From positions 1-63,453 of the IMG/VR virus record IMGVR_UViG_3300028577_000013: 63,453 nucleotides of DNA; one strand, given 5' to 3'. Shown here in pieces: positions 8,203 through 39,139 of the stretch. A program made the translations under genes and the position numbers. Origin of the DNA: a virus. Under the pieces are notes generated by a model, which did no database searches, was not told the origin of the DNA, and saw only the letters and a program-made list of their open reading frames with translations. Numbering within the stretch: position 1 is the stretch's first letter; every line of letters begins with the position of its first letter.

Positions 8203-8787
8203 CTAACCCATGAGCGCAATCGACTCTCGCGGAATCGAAATAGCACCTTTGCGCCCGAGCATGTCAAGCAGGATGCCGACCCGCTCCCGTCGATCGAAGG
8301 CGACGAGGCCGACCAATCCTTCGAGCGGCCCATCGATCACGCGGACGCGCGAGCCGGGTTTAAGCTGTTGTTTTTTCGGCGCGAGGAGCCGGAAGACTCC
8401 GCCAGAGGATGCCATCGCCTCCTTGAGGGCCGGAACGACCCGCGCCGGCAGGGCGAGCGGCGCCTTCGGTCGAAAGCGCCGGGCGATTTCCTCGCGGCTG
8501 GTCGGAATGCCGCTCGCTCGCTGGATGCCGAGGATCGTATGGACGCCCTTGAGCTGGAGGATTTTGGGCCAATCGTCCTCCGCATCCTCGGCGGCATCGA
8601 ATTCGGCGAAGATGTAGCTGGGATAAAGCGGCCGCTGGACGATCGACTTCCGGCGGGCGTGGCTGATTTCCCGCTCCATGAGGGGGAGGAAGCTGCCGAA
8701 GCGCTGCTCTGGGATTTCGGCGATCGCTTGGCTGACTCTGGCCTCGTTGCCGGGAACGGTCTGGACAACATACCAAGCCCGCGCCAT
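8203..8787 (-). CDS. NusG/RfaH-like transcription elongation (antitermination) factor
   Basis: A 194-residue protein with both NusG domains. The NGN domain covers about residues 4-110 (AWYVVQTVPGNEARV, then PLYPSYIFAEFD, then LKGVHTILGI) and a C-terminal KOW domain covers about 140-194 (KPGSRVRVIDGPLEGLVGLV). NusG proteins bind RNA polymerase and suppress pausing or termination. As the first gene of a 31-kb late operon and lying downstream of a leader with two intrinsic terminators, it is a strong candidate for late-gene antitermination. The start is ATG at 8787 with GAGG upstream. It is a specialised paralogue, not the host housekeeping gene. Confidence 0.85.
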   Translation of the reverse strand: MARAWYVVQTVPGNEARVSQAIAEIPEQRFGSFLPLMEREISHARRKSIVQRPLYPSYIFAEFDAAEDAEDDWPKILQLKGVHTILGIQRASGIPTSREEIARRFRPKAPLALPARVVPALKEAMASSGGVFRLLAPKKQQLKPGSRVRVIDGPLEGLVGLVAFDRRERVGILLDMLGRKGAISIPRESIALMG

Positions 8788-13634: not shown

Positions 13635-14003
13635 TCAGGCCGGCGAGAAGACGCCCTCGCGGAGCCAGCCATGCCAACCACACCCGGCATATTTTTCCGC
13701 CGGGTTCTCTGGATTGTGTGAAAGGCAGTTGATCGAGGGATGCAGCGTGGGCTTTTCGATATTGCCATCCCAAGCCCAGACCTTGTTCTCGGGCGGCTTC
13801 TTTCCGTTGACGATCCAGATCGAGCCGCAGTTTCCATGCCCGAGCGGGCAACCGAAATTGAAGCGCCCGCGCTGGCCTGGCGCCGGCGGAGCTGCCGCGC
13901 TCTGCCCCATAGTCTCGAAACGGAACTCGCCCGGAGCTCGCGGGAATGGCGTCATCACCGGATGCCCGGGATCGAGAGCAATATGTTTTCCCTCGACGCT
14001 CAT
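13635..14003 (-). CDS. DUF6527-like protein, probable metal binder
   Basis: A 122-residue protein. The C-terminal 80 residues follow the DUF6527 pattern: FNFGCPLGHGNCGSIWI, then WAWDGNIEKPTLHPSI, then YAGCGWHGWLREG. The conserved Cys and His residues would bind zinc. DUF6527 proteins are widespread in phages and mobile elements with unknown function. The start is ATG at 14003, overlapping the stop of the upstream fusion protein by 4 bases, so it belongs to the modification cassette operon. Confidence 0.7.
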   Translation of the reverse strand: MSVEGKHIALDPGHPVMTPFPRAPGEFRFETMGQSAAAPPAPGQRGRFNFGCPLGHGNCGSIWIVNGKKPPENKVWAWDGNIEKPTLHPSINCLSHNPENPAEKYAGCGWHGWLREGVFSPA

Positions 14004-15154
14004 GCCGCGATCAGCTTCCGCAGCTCGGGCCCACAATGCACATCGACGACAAGGTGGATGCGCTCCACATCGGATGGATTGACCACCGCATGAGGCTTGC
14101 GGGTGTCGATATAGCAGAGCGTCCCTTGCGGGAAGTGGAGCTGCCATTCCCGCCCATCGAGCGCCCAGGAGCGGAAGACGCAGCGCGGATCGGTGACGAT
14201 CGGGATATGCAGCCGGGCGATCTGGCCATCCTTGGTCCCGGCCTCGGGATCGGTGATATCGCTATGGCGGGTGAGCTCGCCATTGCCGGCGGCCAGGCGC
14301 ATGAAGCGCACGCGCTGCTTCTTGCCGGGGATGCGATCGACCAGCGCCATGGTGCTGACCATGATCTGCCCGAGCGCCGTCAAGCCGCACTCGGCCTTCA
14401 TGCGCTCCGGGTTCTTGGCCTTCCAGTCTTTCGACATTTCGGAGGGCTTGATGATGAAGCTGGTATCGGATGGATCGAAGCCGGCCAGGGCGAAGCTCGT
14501 CCAGCTCTTGCGCTTGTTGTAGCTGGAATAATGCTGAGCCCACCGGCCGCTCTCGATGTGGTCGAGCTCGCGCCGCACGCCGGCGAGATCTTCGGGGCTG
14601 GCGGCGCCATCGCCGCGGAGGCTGATCACCTTGATGCCGGGCACATCGGCCGGATCGAGCTGCTCGATGACCGGCGGCGGCCCAAACCACCAAAGGCCCT
14701 TTAAGTCCGAGCTGGCGGCGATCTTCGTCATGGCGCGCCGGAAGCCCATGGTTTCGAGAAGCAGGCACAGCGCCGGGTTCTCGACATGGCCCTCCAGCCA
14801 GGCGCGCTTCGCGCCGGAGCGCTCGATCAGGGTGTTGATGATCTTCCGCTTCCCGCCAGGCGAGCCGGCGATCGAGCGGATGAAAAGATCGCCAGCCTCG
14901 ATCTTGGCGACGCGGCCGGCGAAATCGGTGTGGCTGGAGCCGATCGTATGGTGGCGAAACATGGCGATCGCTTCGAGCTTGCCGTCGATCGCCGTCCACA
15001 TGAGCTGCCCGGCCGCCCTGGCATCGGCGACGTCACGCTCTTTCGGCAGGCCGAAGGCGCCGTAGCAATGGGCTTTGAACTCGGCGCGGTAGAGCGCGGC
15101 CGCTTCCTTGAGGAAGCTCATGGGAAATCCGCGGGACCATTCCGGCGCCGTCAT
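14000..15154 (-). CDS. GNAT-like acyltransferase fused to aspartyl/asparaginyl-hydroxylase-like dioxygenase
   Basis: A 384-residue protein with two parts. Residues about 15-150 look like a GNAT domain (a phosphate-binding-like SIAGSPGGKRKIINTLIE and the typical late motif NPALCLLLETMGFRR). Residues about 260-384 look like a 2-oxoglutarate/Fe(II) dioxygenase of the aspartyl/asparaginyl beta-hydroxylase type: HSD as the HxD metal pair, RLHIPIVTD, then KPHAVVN and an Arg before HLVVD. A linker with many charged residues joins them. The neighbours (methyltransferase, PLP enzyme) suggest it acts on a DNA base or a small intermediate. Start ATG at 15154; an internal ATG at 15121 is also possible. 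Confidence 0.65.
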   Translation of the reverse strand: MTAPEWSRGFPMSFLKEAAALYRAEFKAHCYGAFGLPKERDVADARAAGQLMWTAIDGKLEAIAMFRHHTIGSSHTDFAGRVAKIEAGDLFIRSIAGSPGGKRKIINTLIERSGAKRAWLEGHVENPALCLLLETMGFRRAMTKIAASSDLKGLWWFGPPPVIEQLDPADVPGIKVISLRGDGAASPEDLAGVRRELDHIESGRWAQHYSSYNKRKSWTSFALAGFDPSDTSFIIKPSEMSKDWKAKNPERMKAECGLTALGQIMVSTMALVDRIPGKKQRVRFMRLAAGNGELTRHSDITDPEAGTKDGQIARLHIPIVTDPRCVFRSWALDGREWQLHFPQGTLCYIDTRKPHAVVNPSDVERIHLVVDVHCGPELRKLIAA

Positions 15155-15155
15155 G

Positions 15156-15365
15156 TCAGCCGATATCGATATCGGCGCGAGAGAGCATGTAGATCAAAAG
15201 GAGCAAGCAGATGAGCAGGATCGCCAAGAAGGCGACCGCGACCCATCCGGCGGTCCACCACCAATTCAGTCCGAAAACATGATGGGCCAACCAGCCGACG
15301 AAGCCGAGGAGTCCGGCGATGAGGGCCGCGCTGGTGATTTGAAATCCGAGAGTTTGCCAGTCCAT
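15156..15365 (-). CDS. Small membrane protein, two transmembrane segments
   Basis: 69 residues from ATG at 15365. Two hydrophobic segments (about residues 8-30 and 35-60) and a short acidic tail (SRADIDIG). It is placed inside the cassette between the PLP enzyme and the fusion protein. Its size would suit a holin, but the lysis genes are elsewhere, so it may anchor something at the membrane. Reading further upstream only overlaps the PLP gene. Confidence 0.55.
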   Translation of the reverse strand: MDWQTLGFQITSAALIAGLLGFVGWLAHHVFGLNWWWTAGWVAVAFLAILLICLLLLIYMLSRADIDIG

Positions 15366-15397
15366 GAGCCACGCCCCCTTGATGCCGAGGCTCAGCT

Positions 15398-16138
15398 TTA
15401 CACCGCCGGCGGCCGATCGCCCAGCACATTCCACATGAGCCGGCGGCCGCGCCCGCGCGCCATGAGCTGCTCCCATGCTTTGCGATCGTAGTTTCCGCAG
15501 CTCGGGAACGGGGAGCTGGCCGGCGTCTCCTCCGCGAAATCATAGGGGCAGGGCACCAGCTCGACGTTTGGCGGGAAGGCCTGCTTCTGATTCCGGCTGG
15601 CCAGCCCGACAGTCACGCCAAAGACCCGGCTCTGGGGGAAGGCCCGGCCGAGGCAGCGCGCCAGCATCCCCGAGCCCGTCGCGCACCAAACCTCGTCCAC
15701 CGGCCCAGCCTGAGCGGCCACCCGGGCCATGACCGCCTCGAAGGGGCTGGTGGCGCCGGGGATATCGAAGCCCAGCGGCAGGAAGAGCGCGCCAGCCTGG
15801 GCGGCATAAGACCGGGCCCGGTGCTGGACAACGCTCATGCGGCCGGCCGGGACTTGGAAGAGCGTCGCGCCATTGCGGAAGGCCGCCTTCTGGCGCCAGT
15901 GGAATTCCTTGCGCTTGGCATAAAACAGCGTGACGGCCACGCCCTTGCGGCGCCCATAGACCGAGAGCGCATAGGGCGCGCCGCCGCAAAATGGACCGCC
16001 GAAGACGATTTCCTTCGCGCCGGCGACGATGTGCGGGAGAAACCTGATCTTGGAGCCGCCGTCGAGCAAATCCTCGCGGACAACCAGCACGCCGCCATGC
16101 TCCTCGATGATCGGAGCGGCTTCGTACCACTCAGGCAT
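15398..16138 (-). CDS. PLP-dependent enzyme, fold type II (ACC deaminase/cysteine desulfhydrase-like)
   Basis: A 246-residue protein. The N-terminal motif VVREDLLDGGSKIRFL matches the place of the PLP lysine in fold-type-II enzymes such as ACC deaminase (there GGNKVRK). It is followed by a Gly-rich loop (VFGGPFCGGAPYALSVYG), a phosphate-binding-like segment CATGSGMLA and a C-terminal PSCGNYDRKAWEQ. Such enzymes eliminate or exchange groups at an amino acid's beta or gamma carbon. In this context it may process an amino acid attached to a base. It is shorter than the usual 330 residues. ATG at 16138 overlaps the stop of the upstream gene by 8 bases. Confidence 0.7.
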   Translation of the reverse strand: MPEWYEAAPIIEEHGGVLVVREDLLDGGSKIRFLPHIVAGAKEIVFGGPFCGGAPYALSVYGRRKGVAVTLFYAKRKEFHWRQKAAFRNGATLFQVPAGRMSVVQHRARSYAAQAGALFLPLGFDIPGATSPFEAVMARVAAQAGPVDEVWCATGSGMLARCLGRAFPQSRVFGVTVGLASRNQKQAFPPNVELVPCPYDFAEETPASSPFPSCGNYDRKAWEQLMARGRGRRLMWNVLGDRPPAV

Positions 16139-16508
16139 TGCCGGCGGCTTCTGCCAGCGTGAGGAAGCTGCTCGGCCGAGCATTGTCGCGCTGCCGCTCC
16201 ATCGCCAGCTTGCAACACTTTTCGAGCTGGACGAGGAGCTCCTCATGCTTGTCGATGCCGAGCTGCTCCTTCAGAGCGGCGTTCATCGCCTTGGTGCTGC
16301 GATCGATATCCTCCCGCGTCTCGCGGATGAGCTGGCGGCCGACGCCTGGCGGGAACAAGTGCTTGCACCCATCGCATTGCAGCGCCGCCGCCCAGCATCC
16401 TTCGGCCACATCGTATTCGGCGCCGAAGAGAACCTCGCCGCTGCCCTTGGTGATGACGAAATGGAGGAACGCCTTGAGGTTGGCCTTCAGCGCGGCGGTG
16501 TCAGTCAT
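16131..16508 (-). CDS. Unknown protein, 125 residues, in modification cassette
   Basis: The start is ATG at 16508 (ATGA overlap). The product is mostly helical: LKANLKAFLHFVITKGSGEV, then a CDGCKHLF pair of cysteines and a C-terminal helical half (HEELLVQLEKCCKLAMERQR). The CxxC may bind metal. No family recognised. Its place between the methyltransferase and PLP genes suggests an accessory role. Confidence 0.55.
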   Translation of the reverse strand: MTDTAALKANLKAFLHFVITKGSGEVLFGAEYDVAEGCWAAALQCDGCKHLFPPGVGRQLIRETREDIDRSTKAMNAALKEQLGIDKHEELLVQLEKCCKLAMERQRDNARPSSFLTLAEAAGNA

Positions 16509-16702
16509 GTCGTCTTCCTTAAACGCTCGGCGGCATCGGCCGCAATCACTTCCGCATCGGTCGCGAGCTGGAGCCATCCTTCGGCCACGGATGGATAGGG
16601 CGTCTCGGCGGCGCGTTGCCGGCAGCGCTCAGCCAACAGGCCCATCCGCTCTGGAATGCCAGGGAGCGCGGCGCGGGCGGCGGCGAGATCGGCTTCGATC
16701 AA
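16505..16702 (-). CDS. Small helical protein, 65 residues
   Basis: The start is TTG at 16702, overlapping the methyltransferase stop (TTGA). The product is helical and Ala/Arg-rich (IEADLAAARAALPGIPERMG then a second helix AEVIAADAAERLRK). It is coupled on both sides. Function unknown. Confidence 0.55.
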   Translation of the reverse strand: MIEADLAAARAALPGIPERMGLLAERCRQRAAETPYPSVAEGWLQLATDAEVIAADAAERLRKTT

Positions 16703-18318
16703 GTTATCTCGCCCCCGATATCCTTGGCCGTCACCTTCTCGCCGAACTCGCCCGGGGGAGCTGCTGGCTCCATGCCTTCCGGCTCGCCGAACTCGACGGG
16801 CCCGATCGCCTCGGTGGCTTTGACAGGATCGCCCTTCACGAAGATCAGAACGTCTTGATGGGTCTTTCCCAGCTTGCGGCTCGTCTCGAAGGCCCGGCCG
16901 GCGCGCATGGCGAGAGAGCCGGCGCTGGTGACGAGGATCGCATGGTTGTAGAGGCGCAGCCCGTCCTCCTCGAAGGCCCTGATCGTGTCCATGTGGAAGC
17001 CGCGGTAAAGACCCTTCTCATCGCGAAGATCGCCGACAACGAAGATGGCGAAGCGATCGTCGGCCAGAAGCTCGCAGCTCGCCTCGATGATCTTGTTGTA
17101 GGCCGCGATGAACTTCCCATATTCCATCGTGCTCAGGTCTTTGGGATCGTCGCTGTAGCGCTCGAGATCGGAATATGGCGGGCAGGAGAAGATCAGGTCG
17201 GCCGGCATTCCCTTCGCGCCCTTAGTGAGCTGACCGATCTTGAGGCTATCGCCTTTGATCCATTCGGGCGCCGGCGCCTTGCACAGCTTCTTGCCCTGGG
17301 CGCGGTTGGCGGCGATCTGCTCTTCCCGAAGATCGACGCCCATGTAGCGGCGCCCGAGCTTGCTGGCGACGATGCCGCGCACGGAGCCGCCGGCGAAGGG
17401 ATCGAGCACCAGCCCCTTGGGCGGGCAAAACCAGCGATAAGCCAGCTCGGCCAGGACCGGATCGAAGATCGAAGTGCCACCGCCTGACTCTTCGTTTTCT
17501 CCGCCAGGGCCTTGGCGATAGATGCTATTGGGACCGCCGCCGCCGGGCGTGGCATCGCGAGCCGCTGTATCGGCCTTTTTATTGCCGAACTCCTTGAGCG
17601 CCTTCTGCTCTATCGCGTCATCATCGAGGCCGTCAGTGCGGCACTTCGCAACATAAGCCACGACATTTCGGTAATGACCGGGAATGACAAGGGCGAGACG
17701 ATCTTGCAGTGACTTCTTGAGCAGGTTTCCGCCGCGGCCGACTTCGCTCTCGATCCCCAGCGCCAGCCAGGCGCGCTTCCGATCCTGCCACCAGCCTTCG
17801 CGGGCATTGAGCACGGAGAAGGGCACGGCGAAGAACTTGTCGGCGAGGTTGCCGATCGTCGGCTTGCGGCCATCGGTGGGCGCGGCCGGGGCGCCGCTGG
17901 AGAAGACATTGAGCTCGGCCAGCTCGAAGCCGGTCAGCGAAAGATCGAAGGCGGCGGTTTGCAGCTCGCCGAGCTCGGTGCGCAACAGGCCCTCGTCCCA
18001 CCCGCCGCTGAGCGTGCTCTTGTTGTCCCAAAGCCGGTAGGCCTTAACCTGATCGGAGTTCCAGCCGCGCGCCACCAGCACCGGGACTTCCTCCATCGGC
18101 GGATCGAGCTGGGAGGCGGCGAAGCGGCGATGGCCGGCGATGATCCCGCCAAGCTCATCGACGAGGATCGGATACGTCCAGCCATATTCGTCGATCGCGC
18201 GCCGGGCCGCGAGGATATCGGCCTCGCTATGGGTGCGGGCGTTCTTGGCATAGGGCTTGATGCGCTCGACGCCCCAGAGCTCGACCTTCGTCGCGGGCCA
18301 GTCCTTCGGATCGATCAT
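16699..18318 (-). CDS. ParB-like domain fused to DNA methyltransferase with SCPPY motif
   Basis: A 539-residue protein. Residues about 10-75 are a ParB-like domain (VERIKPYAKNARTHSEADI, then IIAGHRRFAAS). The C-terminal half is a class I methyltransferase: SAM motif LDPFAGGSVRG and the catalytic region LIFSCPPYSDLERYS, where amino-methyltransferases have DPPY, NPPY or SPPY. The Cys in place of Asp/Asn/Ser is notable. The middle has conserved-looking FAVPFSVLNAREGWWQDRK. It may methylate or otherwise alter a base. ATG at 18318 overlaps the upstream stop; the longer reading to 18441 shadows the preceding gene. Confidence 0.8.
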   Translation of the reverse strand: MIDPKDWPATKVELWGVERIKPYAKNARTHSEADILAARRAIDEYGWTYPILVDELGGIIAGHRRFAASQLDPPMEEVPVLVARGWNSDQVKAYRLWDNKSTLSGGWDEGLLRTELGELQTAAFDLSLTGFELAELNVFSSGAPAAPTDGRKPTIGNLADKFFAVPFSVLNAREGWWQDRKRAWLALGIESEVGRGGNLLKKSLQDRLALVIPGHYRNVVAYVAKCRTDGLDDDAIEQKALKEFGNKKADTAARDATPGGGGPNSIYRQGPGGENEESGGGTSIFDPVLAELAYRWFCPPKGLVLDPFAGGSVRGIVASKLGRRYMGVDLREEQIAANRAQGKKLCKAPAPEWIKGDSLKIGQLTKGAKGMPADLIFSCPPYSDLERYSDDPKDLSTMEYGKFIAAYNKIIEASCELLADDRFAIFVVGDLRDEKGLYRGFHMDTIRAFEEDGLRLYNHAILVTSAGSLAMRAGRAFETSRKLGKTHQDVLIFVKGDPVKATEAIGPVEFGEPEGMEPAAPPGEFGEKVTAKDIGGEIT

Positions 18319-28484: not shown

Positions 28485-28650
28485 GTTTAGGCCGCCTGTA
28501 TCGCCCGAGGTCTGGATCAAACACGCGGCCGCTTTCCTTCTGCTCGGGCTGCTCCGGCGCATCGCCCAGGATTTGATCGATCGAGCGCGGCCGCCGGCGG
28601 TGAGCGTGAAACTCTTCCGCCGCTTTCTTCAGGCCGGGAGGGAGAGCCAT
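28474..28650 (-). CDS. Small unknown protein, 58 residues
   Basis: The start is ATG at 28650, overlapping the upstream methyltransferase stop. Contains LPPGLKKAAEEFHAHRRRPR then SIDQILGDAPEQPEQKE. Basic then acidic. No family recognised. Overlaps the zinc-finger gene by 11 bases. Confidence 0.55.
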   Translation of the reverse strand: MALPPGLKKAAEEFHAHRRRPRSIDQILGDAPEQPEQKESGRVFDPDLGRYRRPKHGE

Positions 28651-29267
28651 CACGGCCAGTCCGTCTTGCGATCGAGCGCGGCGCGGCAGGGCGGAATCCA
28701 GGCCAGCCGGGGCTCGCCGCGGGCGCGCTGTTCCCAGACGAGCCAGCAATAGCTCGTCGCCGTCGAAGCCTTGCGATCGAGGCGCCCCTTCACCATCGCG
28801 ACGCGCTCGACGAATTGGGCCATGACGCTGGGCGGCCGCCGGCGGAAGAGCCGCTCATACCGGCCGCTGCTCTCGATGAAGACGCTGCGGACGAGGATGG
28901 CGACGCCTTCTTCGGCCAGCTCCAGGCCTCGATCGACGAATTCCTCGGCCAGGCGGAAGGGCGGGTTGGTGATTATCCAATCGACGCGCCCACACCAATC
29001 GGGCGTGAAGCGCTGAAGGAAATCATGGATCGGCGTCTCGCCGTAATCGTGCACATCGCTCGATCGGACAGAGCGCATATATTCGGCCATGGGCCGCGCC
29101 ATCGCGCCATCGCCGCAGGCCGGGTCCCAGCCGACCTCAGCATGGCGGGGGCCGATCACATGCTCGAAGAGAGCGCGCGTCGCCCAGGGTGGGGTGGGAA
29201 AGAAGTCGAGAGAATCGTTCGGTTCCGAACGCTGGGCCATTACCGCATGGGAACGGTTCTGGCTCAT
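28650..29267 (-). CDS. DNA N6-adenine methyltransferase-like protein (NPPF motif)
   Basis: A 205-residue protein. Motif DFFPTPPWATRALFEHVI near residue 20, then DPACGDGAMARPM as SAM motif I, and IITNPPFRLAEEFV as the catalytic NPPF. This order is that of small phage adenine methyltransferases, which can block host restriction or mark phage DNA. A DxxG-like SAM site and no target-recognition domain are visible. ATG at 29267 overlaps the small upstream ORF by 4 bases. Confidence 0.75.
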   Translation of the reverse strand: MSQNRSHAVMAQRSEPNDSLDFFPTPPWATRALFEHVIGPRHAEVGWDPACGDGAMARPMAEYMRSVRSSDVHDYGETPIHDFLQRFTPDWCGRVDWIITNPPFRLAEEFVDRGLELAEEGVAILVRSVFIESSGRYERLFRRRPPSVMAQFVERVAMVKGRLDRKASTATSYCWLVWEQRARGEPRLAWIPPCRAALDRKTDWP

Positions 29268-34102: not shown

Positions 34103-35563
34103 ATGCAATCAATTCAGAATGTCGCCCTCGACAAGCTCCGCTTCGGCCATGAATTCAAAGGCGGCTCGCTTAATGTCCGGCAATCCGGCCGCGATGATGT
34201 TGACGCCCTGATCGCTTCCATCAAGGCCGAGGGGCTGCTCCAGCCTCTCGCCTCATGGGAGCGTGAAGGCGTTTTCTATATCTTAGACGGCAACCGCCGC
34301 CTGGCCGCGCTGAAAAAGATCGGCAAGCCAGTGCCGGAGAATTGGCTGCATGTCATCGAGGCCGACAGTATCGAAGACGCCCAGGCGAAGAGCTTGGCGG
34401 CCAACATCATGGCCGTGCCGCTCGATCCGGTTGACCGCTTCGAGGCCTTCGCCTCTCTCCAGCCGAAGTTCACCGCCGAGCAGATCGCGGCGCGATATGG
34501 CACCACGAAGAAGCTGGTCGAGCGCAGCCTCATCCTCGCAAAGCTCTCGCCGACGATCAGGACGGCGCTCCGCAAAAACGAGCTCGATTACGAGGCCGCC
34601 TGCGCCTTCACCATCGAGCCCGATCCGAAGCGCCAGGAGGCCATCTTCAAGAAGCTGAAGGCGCGCGGAAACTGGTGCCTGCGTCGCTATGATATCCGCG
34701 AGGCAATCACCGGCGATCAGGATGATATCGCCGGCATGTTGAAATTCGTCGGCGCCGCGGCCGCCAAGGAGGCGGGCGTGACGGAAGTGGACGATCTATT
34801 CGCCGAAAAGGGCGACGCGCCCAAAGTGGTGCAGAATGTCGGCGCGCTGGAGAAGCTCGTCCAGGCGAAGATCAGCAGCACGAAGAGCAAGCTGCTGGCC
34901 GAGGGCTGGGGCAGCGTGGTGATGGAAGACAGCCTCGAATATGGCTGGGAGCGTTGGGCCCGCTCGCCGGCAGCAAAGGGCGCCGATCGCAAGAAGCTCA
35001 TGGTGGTGCTGGAGCTCAAAGGCGGAGTTCTCAAGCAGCATCTGGGCCTCCATAAATCGAAGCAGCGCGTCGCCGTCGAGCAGAAGGCCGAGAAGAAGAA
35101 GGCCAGCCCGAACGCGCTGAGCAATGCGCTCAAGGAGCGGCTGGAGTACGTTCTCATCAAGGCCACCCGCACGGCGATCTTGAACGAGAGCTGGAAAGAC
35201 CCCCGGGCGGCCATCTTCACCGCGATCGTCGCTGCGGATATTGACCGCCATCGCTTCATCCAGCAGATGCCAACCTATTTGGGCTCGAAGCTGGCCAGCA
35301 TCCGGGACTCAATATCGGCCGATGTGATGAAGGCGGCGCTGCTCAAGCACTTCGATCCGAAGGACTACTTCCCGCGCGCCCCCAAGGGCGTGGTGCTGAA
35401 GGCGATCGCGGAATCCCTTGTCCAGGCCCCGGCCGATCTGAAAACGAAAACCAAGGCCGTGATCTGGAAATTCGCCATCGCCCATGTCGGCAAGACCGAA
35501 TGGTTGCCGCCTGAGCTGCGCACCGCCCACTATGCCGCCAAGAAGGGCGCGAAGAAGCGCTGA
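34103..35563 (+). CDS. ParB-like protein, 486 residues
   Basis: The start is ATG at 34103, behind CCACCAACC and CAAGAGGAATTC. Residues about 5-100 are a ParB N-terminal domain: LNVRQSGRDDVDALIASIKA, then FYILDGNRRLAALKKIG. A helix-turn-helix part follows (FTAEQIAARYGTTKKLVERS). The C-terminal 250 residues are helical and not recognised. ParB domains bind or hydrolyse CTP and act as DNA clamps. No ParA gene is seen, so it may not be for partition. It could regulate transcription or replication. Confidence 0.7.
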   Translation: MQSIQNVALDKLRFGHEFKGGSLNVRQSGRDDVDALIASIKAEGLLQPLASWEREGVFYILDGNRRLAALKKIGKPVPENWLHVIEADSIEDAQAKSLAANIMAVPLDPVDRFEAFASLQPKFTAEQIAARYGTTKKLVERSLILAKLSPTIRTALRKNELDYEAACAFTIEPDPKRQEAIFKKLKARGNWCLRRYDIREAITGDQDDIAGMLKFVGAAAAKEAGVTEVDDLFAEKGDAPKVVQNVGALEKLVQAKISSTKSKLLAEGWGSVVMEDSLEYGWERWARSPAAKGADRKKLMVVLELKGGVLKQHLGLHKSKQRVAVEQKAEKKKASPNALSNALKERLEYVLIKATRTAILNESWKDPRAAIFTAIVAADIDRHRFIQQMPTYLGSKLASIRDSISADVMKAALLKHFDPKDYFPRAPKGVVLKAIAESLVQAPADLKTKTKAVIWKFAIAHVGKTEWLPPELRTAHYAAKKGAKKR

Positions 35564-38209: not shown

Positions 38210-38397
38210 AGCCGGTCAAGCACAGCGAGATTTGCGCGCGGTGCGGCAAAGCCCGGCAAGTGATCTGGCATGGGCGCTATACTGCGTCGGAATTCTACCC
38301 GCCTGGCGCTTGCACCCAGACAGACCAATGCGAGCGGGAAATGCTGGCGGCCGCGAAGAAGATCGAAAAATCAAGAGGAGAGAAGAATGCGAGTTGA
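38206..38397 (+). CDS. Small Cys-rich protein, 63 residues
   Basis: The start is ATG at 38206 (ATGA overlap). Contains CARCGKARQVIWHGR and ACTQTDQCE, forming a likely zinc site. The C-terminal tail is basic. It overlaps the methyltransferase gene by 11 bases. Function unknown. Confidence 0.55.
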   Translation: MKPVKHSEICARCGKARQVIWHGRYTASEFYPPGACTQTDQCEREMLAAAKKIEKSRGEKNAS

Positions 38398-39139
38398 AAC
38401 AGATGTGATGCTGGTGCTGGAGCGGTCGGGCACGCATGGGAACGAGCTGCACTTGCCGCCAGAGAAGCTCGATCGGCCGATGTATGAGCGCGTCGCCAAG
38501 GTGATCGAGGCCTGCGGCGGCAAATGGAACCGAAAAGCGAAAGCCCACCTGTTCGACGGGCCGGCGGTCGATGCGATCGATGCGGTGCTCTTGAACGGCG
38601 AAGTCGCGAAGCCGCAGGATTTTGGCTTCTTCGAGACGCCGCCCGAGTTGGTGGTGCGCGTGATGTACGAGGCGCAAATCAGCGAGGGCATGGAAGTGCT
38701 GGAGCCCTCGGCCGGCACCGGCCGCCTAGCAGATGCGGCGCGCGATGTTGGCGCTAATGTCCTGTGCGTCGAGCTCCAGCAAAAGAATTGCGAGGCGCTC
38801 CGGGCCAAGAAGCATCACTTCATCCCCACCACGGATTTCCTCACCTTCGAGCGGCCGATCCTGCCGGCGCGCTTCGATCGCGTGGTGATGAACCCGCCCT
38901 TCGCGCGCTCGGCCGATGTGAAGCACATCTTGCACGCCTATTCGATGCTCAAGCCAGGCGGCCGTCTGGTGTCGATCGCCGGCGCCGGCGTCCTCTTCCG
39001 GCAGGACCGGCTATATCAGGAGCTCCGCCAGCTCGCGGCCGCGCACGGCTCGATGGAGCCGCTCCCGGAGGGCAGCTTCAAGAGCGCCGGCACGATGGTG
39101 AATACGGCGCTGGTGATTCTCGATGCCGATCCGGCCTGA
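38387..39139 (+). CDS. DNA methyltransferase, class I, NPPF motif, 250 residues
   Basis: The start is ATG at 38387 behind CAAGAGGAG. The N-terminal 80 residues are a small domain (ACGGKWNRKAKAHLFDG). Then come the methyltransferase motifs: FFETPPELVVRVMYEAQ, LEPSAGTGRLADAARD and FDRVVMNPPFARSADVKHI. This is the N6-adenine/strain-protection type found in many phages. It likely methylates adenine; specificity is not visible. Confidence 0.8.
   Translation: MRVETDVMLVLERSGTHGNELHLPPEKLDRPMYERVAKVIEACGGKWNRKAKAHLFDGPAVDAIDAVLLNGEVAKPQDFGFFETPPELVVRVMYEAQISEGMEVLEPSAGTGRLADAARDVGANVLCVELQQKNCEALRAKKHHFIPTTDFLTFERPILPARFDRVVMNPPFARSADVKHILHAYSMLKPGGRLVSIAGAGVLFRQDRLYQELRQLAAAHGSMEPLPEGSFKSAGTMVNTALVILDADPA

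Follow-up and report, generated by a model that had tools for sequence, protein, structure and literature searches.

What would a virus make with a DNA-methyltransferase-like protein, a pyridoxal 5'-phosphate (PLP) enzyme and an acyltransferase–hydroxylase fusion encoded close together? The question is raised by a block of genes at 13635–18318, all on the minus strand, of IMG/VR virus record IMGVR_UViG_3300028577_000013, whose 63,453 bases (possibly a fragment) we refer to as the window. Our answer, to which we assign a probability of roughly one half, is that the block holds a factory for DNA-base hypermodification: a ParB-methyltransferase scaffold would attach an arm of S-adenosylmethionine (SAM, also AdoMet) to a base, and partner enzymes would tailor the adduct on the phage's own DNA. 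This reading is built from gene content, conserved motifs and the neighborhoods of related viral loci.

The enzymes of the cassette

A preliminary description of this DNA had identified the main proteins as a ParB-methyltransferase (ParB-MTase), a PLP enzyme and a GNAT–dioxygenase fusion, and profiles, motifs and a model of the GNAT domain bear these identities out. The corresponding features are as follows:

16699..18318, minus strand: ParB-type N-terminal domain plus DNA-MTase-fold domain, 539 amino acids (aa), the core enzyme of the cassette (Pfam, PHROGs, alignment)
17374..17403, minus strand: SAM-binding motif I DPFAGGSVRG of this protein, aa 306–315, called R-type here (alignment of relatives)
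17173..17187, minus strand: its catalytic motif IV SCPPY, aa 378–382 (conserved across the family)
15398..16138, minus strand: fold-type-II PLP enzyme, 246 aa, with the GGSK lysine at aa 30, a GSG phosphate loop at aa 155–157 and a YDxKAW motif
14000..15154, minus strand: GNAT N-acyltransferase-fold domain plus 2-oxoglutarate (2OG)-Fe(II) hydroxylase of the Asp/Asn-hydroxylase or cis-4-proline-hydroxylase kind, 384 aa (Pfam, models, alignment)

The MTase matches PF01555 (3.4e-11) and PHROG 498 (2.6e-119), and its N-terminus is of ParB type by PHROG 15396 (4e-43), with PF02195 reaching just 0.015, under the cut-off. Both motifs of a class I N6/N4 DNA MTase are present but off consensus: motif IV of the family has a Cys at the position where ordinary N-MTases have D, N or S. 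CPPY is kept in MTases of both clades considered here, with one SPPY exception among those listed; it was ruled out as a hallmark of partnership with a PLP enzyme, being found also in partnerless and decarboxylase-linked MTases. The CPPY MTase is repeatedly found next to a second, small MTase-like protein that bears an SLPD motif (L091:5141-5782, HCTV-2 gp12; L numbers denote loci) and lies 3' of the GNAT-hydroxylase in L270, L274, L276 and L268; this protein is possibly a further tailoring enzyme or a partner subunit.

The PLP enzyme matches PHROG 7093 (6.6e-32) and falls marginally short with PALP (1.7e-8; 34.6 bits against a 35-bit cut-off), a threshold that its counterpart in phage Mae-JY30 exceeds. 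The Schiff-base lysine K30 and the phosphate loop G155-S156-G157 are invariant in an alignment of 39 relatives. Vincenzo, Pam4 and Mae-JY30 are cultured phages with both MTase and PLP enzyme; Vincenzo gp2 belongs to the 1-aminocyclopropane-1-carboxylate (ACC)-deaminase/D-cysteine-desulfhydrase family (1.8e-11), and the Mae-JY30 enzyme is serine/threonine-dehydratase-like (6.6e-9). Across the alignment, the substrate loop of the PLP enzyme seems to track the presence of the GNAT-hydroxylase: it is mostly GGPFCGGAP in linked enzymes (window 15398–16138 and L009–L041) and ATPAEGGAQ-like in the others (L043–L088), with L060 as an exception.

In the fusion protein, the hydroxylase half matches Asp_Arg_Hydrox (PF05118, 4.4e-10), and a Pfam search of the window protein gives no match for the GNAT half. 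The predicted structure of the whole fusion has a predicted local distance difference test score (pLDDT) of 92.9, and that of the first 160 residues alone has one of 95. The best 50 PDB matches of the N-terminal model are mostly GNAT acetyltransferases (E from 1.8e-6), including Ard1, RimI and phosphinothricin N-acetyltransferases, the nearest GNATs, which acetylate alpha-amines. The C-terminal half resembles L-proline cis-4-hydroxylase 4p7w (6.8e-7 by sequence, 8.9e-11 by fold), and its other fold matches include beta-hydroxylases of a nucleoside-antibiotic pathway and AspH. Its iron ligands H297xD299...H355 and 2OG-binding R365 (H286, D288, H344 and R354 in 373-aa numbering) are invariant in 19 relatives, and a start at 15154 matches the alignment of relatives better than one at 15121. 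One related gene, L014:1061-2980 on the plus strand, carries an intein-like stretch of about 240 extra aa within the conserved HYSSYNKR motif, starting CVEVSQRV and finishing SHN ahead of SSYNKR.

Recurrence across viral loci

Do these genes belong together? With the PLP alignment as query, IMG/VR yielded 474 relatives, of which 80 were kept, and a separate scan from the GNAT-hydroxylase only gave 146, of which 80 were kept; all sets were capped at this size, some relatives fall into more than one of them, and some contigs, fetched in overlapping pieces, are counted twice. A viral scan with a single GNAT-hydroxylase sequence gave no match, the relatives coming from the alignment-based scans.

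Among the PLP-selected loci, the MTase adjoins the PLP enzyme in 72 of the 73 in which an MTase was found; 25 of those also have the GNAT-hydroxylase, and the GNAT is absent from at least 44 of the 72. Selection by the GNAT-hydroxylase gave 57 loci with MTase and PLP enzyme, 14 with MTase only, 6 with PLP enzyme only, 2 with Tet_JBP and ADDT (amino acid:DNA transferase) genes and 1, at a contig end, with nothing, so that 79/80 carry either MTase and/or PLP enzyme (77) or the Tet_JBP–ADDT pair (2). Where MTase, hydroxylase and PLP enzyme occur together they lie on the same strand in all 75 loci counted, with the order MTase, GNAT-hydroxylase, PLP enzyme in 60; a contig fetched in overlapping pieces enters this count more than once. 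PLP and MTase distances correlate across loci (Mantel r 0.56, with 0 of 2,000 permutations as high); the same test on MTase and hydroxylase was weak (52 of 2,000 as high). Because MTase, PLP enzyme and GNAT-hydroxylase are found together in many other viral loci, chance is excluded, and the three form one genetic unit.

The Tet_JBP–ADDT arrangement is seen in the Mycobacterium phage LilMcDreamy (NC_051582.1, L005, 855–2665), in which a GNAT-hydroxylase of the same family lies behind an ADDT gene (gp3, 2.7e-12) and a Tet_JBP-like gene (gp2, a weak match at 0.0022), and it recurs in further contigs. The annotation of gp2 as a queuine tRNA-ribosyltransferase is probably a misannotation within a hypermodification operon; 7-deazaguanine chemistry, which that label would suggest, was dropped in view of the weak Tet_JBP match and the ADDT identity of gp3.

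Fusions and insertions into the methyltransferase

In the Erythrobacter phages R6L (L003) and ZS04 (L004) the MTase domain is split by the PLP domain, with motif I on one side and CPPY on the other. By MTase profile, the split falls between positions 70 and 71 in both, and also in Pam4 (L089), where the inserted PLP domain is a more distant one. The GNAT-hydroxylase is joined directly before the second MTase half, ahead of profile position 72, in L304, a contig that starts inside the GNAT; L285 and L292 encode ParB-MTase-GNAT-hydroxylase fusions. The most complete case is a single open frame of 1,275 codons that holds the whole cassette (L287:3928-7752, plus strand, IMGVR_UViG_3300023199_000205): it runs from ParB through the first MTase half to PLP, GNAT and hydroxylase and closes with the second MTase half, and the catalytic motifs are retained. 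Fusions of this kind establish that the activities form a set, and they suggest that whatever the MTase binds is also what the other enzymes act on.

The preliminary description had proposed that the cassette builds a hypermodified base. That proposal is now strongly supported, by co-occurrence in 79/80 loci and by the fusion or insertion of every tailoring domain into the MTase domain, and it is backed further by the LilMcDreamy operon; the chemistry itself is what we infer.

A sister clade with AdoMet decarboxylase

Which group, then, would be placed on the base? A sister clade of the MTase offers an indication. Counting SpeD (AdoMet decarboxylase) by hidden Markov model in 80 loci of this clade, we found it directly beside the MTase in 72/80 and found no PLP enzyme in the 80. 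These F-type MTases were chosen partly by the motif FDCFAGD(S/T)VF, and adjacency to a decarboxylase was no selection criterion. That motif I stands in place of DPFAGGSVR, the form found in MTases with a PLP enzyme or without a partner: the otherwise invariant arginine of SVR has become F, and an Asp has been gained. From the known geometry of motif I, this arginine would bind the SAM carboxylate, and its change to F alongside a decarboxylase is as expected if it does. Decarboxylated SAM is a donor of aminopropyl groups, and the simplest reading is therefore that what this MTase family transfers from SAM is the amino-acid arm and not the methyl. For the window MTase, too, the partner genes argue that the transferred group may be something other than methyl.

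A tree of these MTases, in which many branches are weak, has the decarboxylase type arising once, and the PLP enzyme coming or going some 20 times among MTases whose DPFAGGSVR is retained; such gain and loss with motif I unaltered fits PLP action after transfer. Two cultured phages, Croceibacter phage P2559S and Pseudomonas phage ZRG1, have both MTase and decarboxylase, the latter matching TIGR03330 at 2.1e-24 in ZRG1. In P2559S the speD gene lies directly downstream of a sister ParB-MTase, and its product is a proven AdoMet decarboxylase that complements E. coli delta-speD (PMC9992855), which rules out for this phage the arginine/ornithine decarboxylase role that was considered for the phage SpeD in light of PMC10407285. 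The other phage SpeDs, putative AdoMet decarboxylases, keep ESH..HTFPE and the catalytic Cys. P2559S SpeD was published as part of polyamine metabolism (PMC9992855), whereas here, in 72/80 loci, it goes with an MTase-fold enzyme whose SAM site is altered. This link, and what it implies for the MTase, go beyond the preliminary description.

Two further observations concern this clade. Three loci (L153, L155 and L156) hold DPFAGGSVR-type and FDCFAGDSVF-type ParB-MTases together with AdoMet decarboxylase, two related systems side by side. In ZRG1, a putative nucleotide modification gene of the Nmad5 family (L095:9837-10436) lies about 4 kb away from the ParB-MTase and its AdoMet decarboxylase partner.

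A proposed pathway

We envision four steps. First, the CPPY 'methyltransferase' would flip out a base (by homology to act on N6 of A or N4 of C) and move onto it the 3-amino-3-carboxypropyl (acp) arm of SAM, not the methyl; in the sister clade, the phage AdoMet decarboxylase would supply the donor and the MTase would transfer 3-aminopropyl. Second, the PLP enzyme would engage the DNA-bound acp at its amino-acid end, as an aldimine, and alter it, with decarboxylation, epimerization and deamination as candidate reactions. Third, the hydroxylase would oxidize a side-chain carbon and the GNAT domain would acylate the amine. Finally, the product would protect phage DNA against host nucleases.

The substrates of relatives of the tailoring enzymes are counted in favor of an amino-acid adduct: these are amino acids for the closest hydroxylases and alpha-amines for the closest GNATs. 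Neither a GNAT nor a relative of proline hydroxylases can use a methyl group, whereas acp is an alpha-amino acid and as such fits all three, GNAT, hydroxylase and PLP enzyme. Some loci have MTase and GNAT-hydroxylase without a PLP enzyme (L309, L310, L270, L274, L276, L284, L291 and L298), and the MTase product itself should thus bear an amine or amino acid. A base bearing such a group would also be the common denominator of the three upstream partners of the GNAT-hydroxylase, namely MTase with PLP enzyme, MTase alone, and Tet_JBP with ADDT.

Several points weigh against this pathway. The motif I change accompanies AdoMet decarboxylase in a single clade, so it is one event and the covariation a single observation, and the role ascribed to the SVR arginine is a putative one. 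The nearest solved relatives of the MTase in PDB are ordinary N4/N6 DNA methyltransferases (2zie, CcrM). When genome loci were sampled by the MTase alone, the PLP enzyme adjoined it in 26/80, and 53/80 (about two thirds) of these R-type MTases had neither PLP enzyme nor decarboxylase; for these partnerless enzymes, simple methylation is a possible outcome. The acyl-CoA pyrophosphate loop (Q/RxxGxG/A) after strand 4 is poorly conserved in the GNAT-hydroxylase alignment, and fold-type-II PLP enzymes are not known to act on nucleic acids. The modified product is a predicted one.

Alternative explanations

The alternative that survives best, although we consider it unlikely, places the alteration of SAM ahead of the transfer: the PLP enzyme would act on SAM or make an electrophile, and the MTase domain would pass the modified arm on to the base. 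There are PLP enzymes, such as SbzP of altemicidin biosynthesis, that draw on the carboxypropyl arm of SAM, and SbzI, the GNAT partner of SbzP, is among the fold matches of the GNAT half. The PLP enzyme also takes the neighborhood place of the sister clade's decarboxylase, and its insertion point adjoins the MTase half that binds SAM. However, if the donor were altered beforehand, a changed donor site would be expected, as is seen in the decarboxylase clade, and the identity of DPFAGGSVR in MTases with and without a PLP enzyme that comes and goes speaks against this alternative, as does the occurrence of GNAT-hydroxylases without a PLP enzyme.

Rather improbable is the idea that the MTase is an ordinary DNA methyltransferase that merely travels with a PLP enzyme and GNAT-hydroxylase making a separate small molecule or DNA mark. 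The MTase does group among N4/N6 MTases, and it often stands alone beside terminase genes in prophages; with orphan phage N6/N4 DNA methyltransferases (PHROG 498; PF01555) it shares fold, SAM-binding motifs and this proximity to terminases. Unlike these, the cassette enzymes have CPPY rather than [DNS]PP[YF] as motif IV, preceded by DPFAGGSVR or FDCFAGDSVF as motif I, and are partnered by PLP enzyme, GNAT-hydroxylase or AdoMet decarboxylase. Mere co-travel also sits poorly with four domains in one frame in L287, repeated insertion into the same MTase loop and the correlated PLP and MTase distances, and the product of the sister clade's decarboxylase is a poor methyl donor.

Thymine hypermodification was offered as an analogy in the preliminary description; its ViI/M6 type, in which an amino acid on 5-hydroxymethyl-deoxyuridine (hmdU) made elsewhere would be tailored by the PLP enzyme and GNAT, is a very unlikely account of the window. 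The operons of ViI and M6 (hmdU kinase, ADDT, PLP enzyme, acetyltransferase) likewise tailor amino-acid adducts with interchangeable enzymes, and Lee and Weigele reportedly describe PLP decarboxylases and acetyltransferases as tailoring enzymes of thymidine hypermodification; the GNAT-hydroxylase family is, moreover, common to the Tet_JBP–ADDT operons of LilMcDreamy-type phages. But searches of the window record, possibly a fragment, for PF18724, PF12851 and PF00303 (ADDT, Tet_JBP and ThyA family) found none, with LilMcDreamy detected as a positive control for PF18724 and PF12851 and a PF18723 search run without one. Neither ADDT nor TET was detected in the 77/80 GNAT-hydroxylase loci with MTase and/or PLP enzyme, and the cassette differs in lacking a source of 5-hydroxymethyl and in having a ParB-MTase-fold entry enzyme into which tailoring domains are inserted.

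There is only a slim chance that the system is Mom-like, with the GNAT domain making the primary adenine modification and the other enzymes acting later. Mom of phage Mu reportedly has a GNAT fold, and the model confirms that fold for the window domain, so a GNAT fold in phage DNA modification is common to both. The analogy drawn earlier goes no further: the GNAT domain has no sequence or profile similarity to Mu Mom (hhalign probability 0.3%), it is fused here to a 2OG-Fe hydroxylase in an MTase–PLP context, and the MTase–PLP core dispenses with it in many PLP-selected loci. Finally, we give least weight to a target other than the virion genome (RNA, protein or host DNA): virion DNA is the predicted target, the core being a DNA MTase family with a ParB-type domain, often adjoining terminase genes.

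Other features of the window

The remaining genes of the block are these:

16505..16702, minus strand: 65-aa open reading frame (ORF) between the MTase and PLP genes; no relatives found
16131..16508, minus strand: 125-aa ORF, function unassigned; no relatives found
15156..15365, minus strand: 69-aa hydrophobic (membrane) protein; no conservation among relatives
13635..14003, minus strand: DUF6527 protein with four Cys (PF20137, 8.7e-10), its start overlapping the GNAT-hydroxylase stop

All genes of the coupled group described earlier are present at the positions reported, with ends that overlap (16702/16699, 16508/16505, 16138/16131, 14003/14000) or abut (15156/15154). The proposed membership of the cassette held in part. 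MTase, PLP enzyme and GNAT-hydroxylase co-occur in other viruses; DUF6527 accompanies the cassette in 0/13 related records, and no recurrence of the small ORFs was seen. For want of conservation in relatives, the membrane protein, DUF6527 and the ORFs of 65 and 125 aa were ruled out as members. A search for near-identical phage DNA found none.

Two more DNA-methyltransferase-like genes and another ParB-like protein, which carries HTH_ParB, lie elsewhere in the window (28650–29240, 38387–39139 and 34103–35563). A NusG-like transcription antiterminator (8203–8787, PHROG 6386) lies just upstream of small terminase-like and terminase genes.

Implications

A literature search for this enzyme combination found no description of it. 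Iyer et al. are reported to have predicted in 2013, in general terms, phage modifications 'using modified SAM derivatives', a prediction that may also cover the MTase–SpeD or MTase–PLP family and is not known to include the GNAT-hydroxylase. There is a real chance that the first step is chemistry new for DNA. We tentatively propose, at a little short of an even chance, a new class of DNA modification in which an MTase-fold enzyme would use SAM to alkylate bases with its amino-acid arm, namely acp, or with aminopropyl where a phage AdoMet decarboxylase supplies the donor, and interchangeable modules (PLP, GNAT, hydroxylase) housed in one loop of that enzyme would tailor the adduct, forming in L287 an assembly line.

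If true, this would be a second, independent route to amino-acid chemistry on DNA, starting from SAM rather than from a hydroxymethyl base. It would occur in hundreds of viral contigs and in the cultured phages Vincenzo, R6L, ZS04, Mae-JY30, Pam4, P2559S and ZRG1, and it could account for the AdoMet decarboxylase beside a DNA-MTase-like gene in phages such as P2559S. It would also mean that these phages hold DNA-alkylating enzymes that place amines at chosen sequences.

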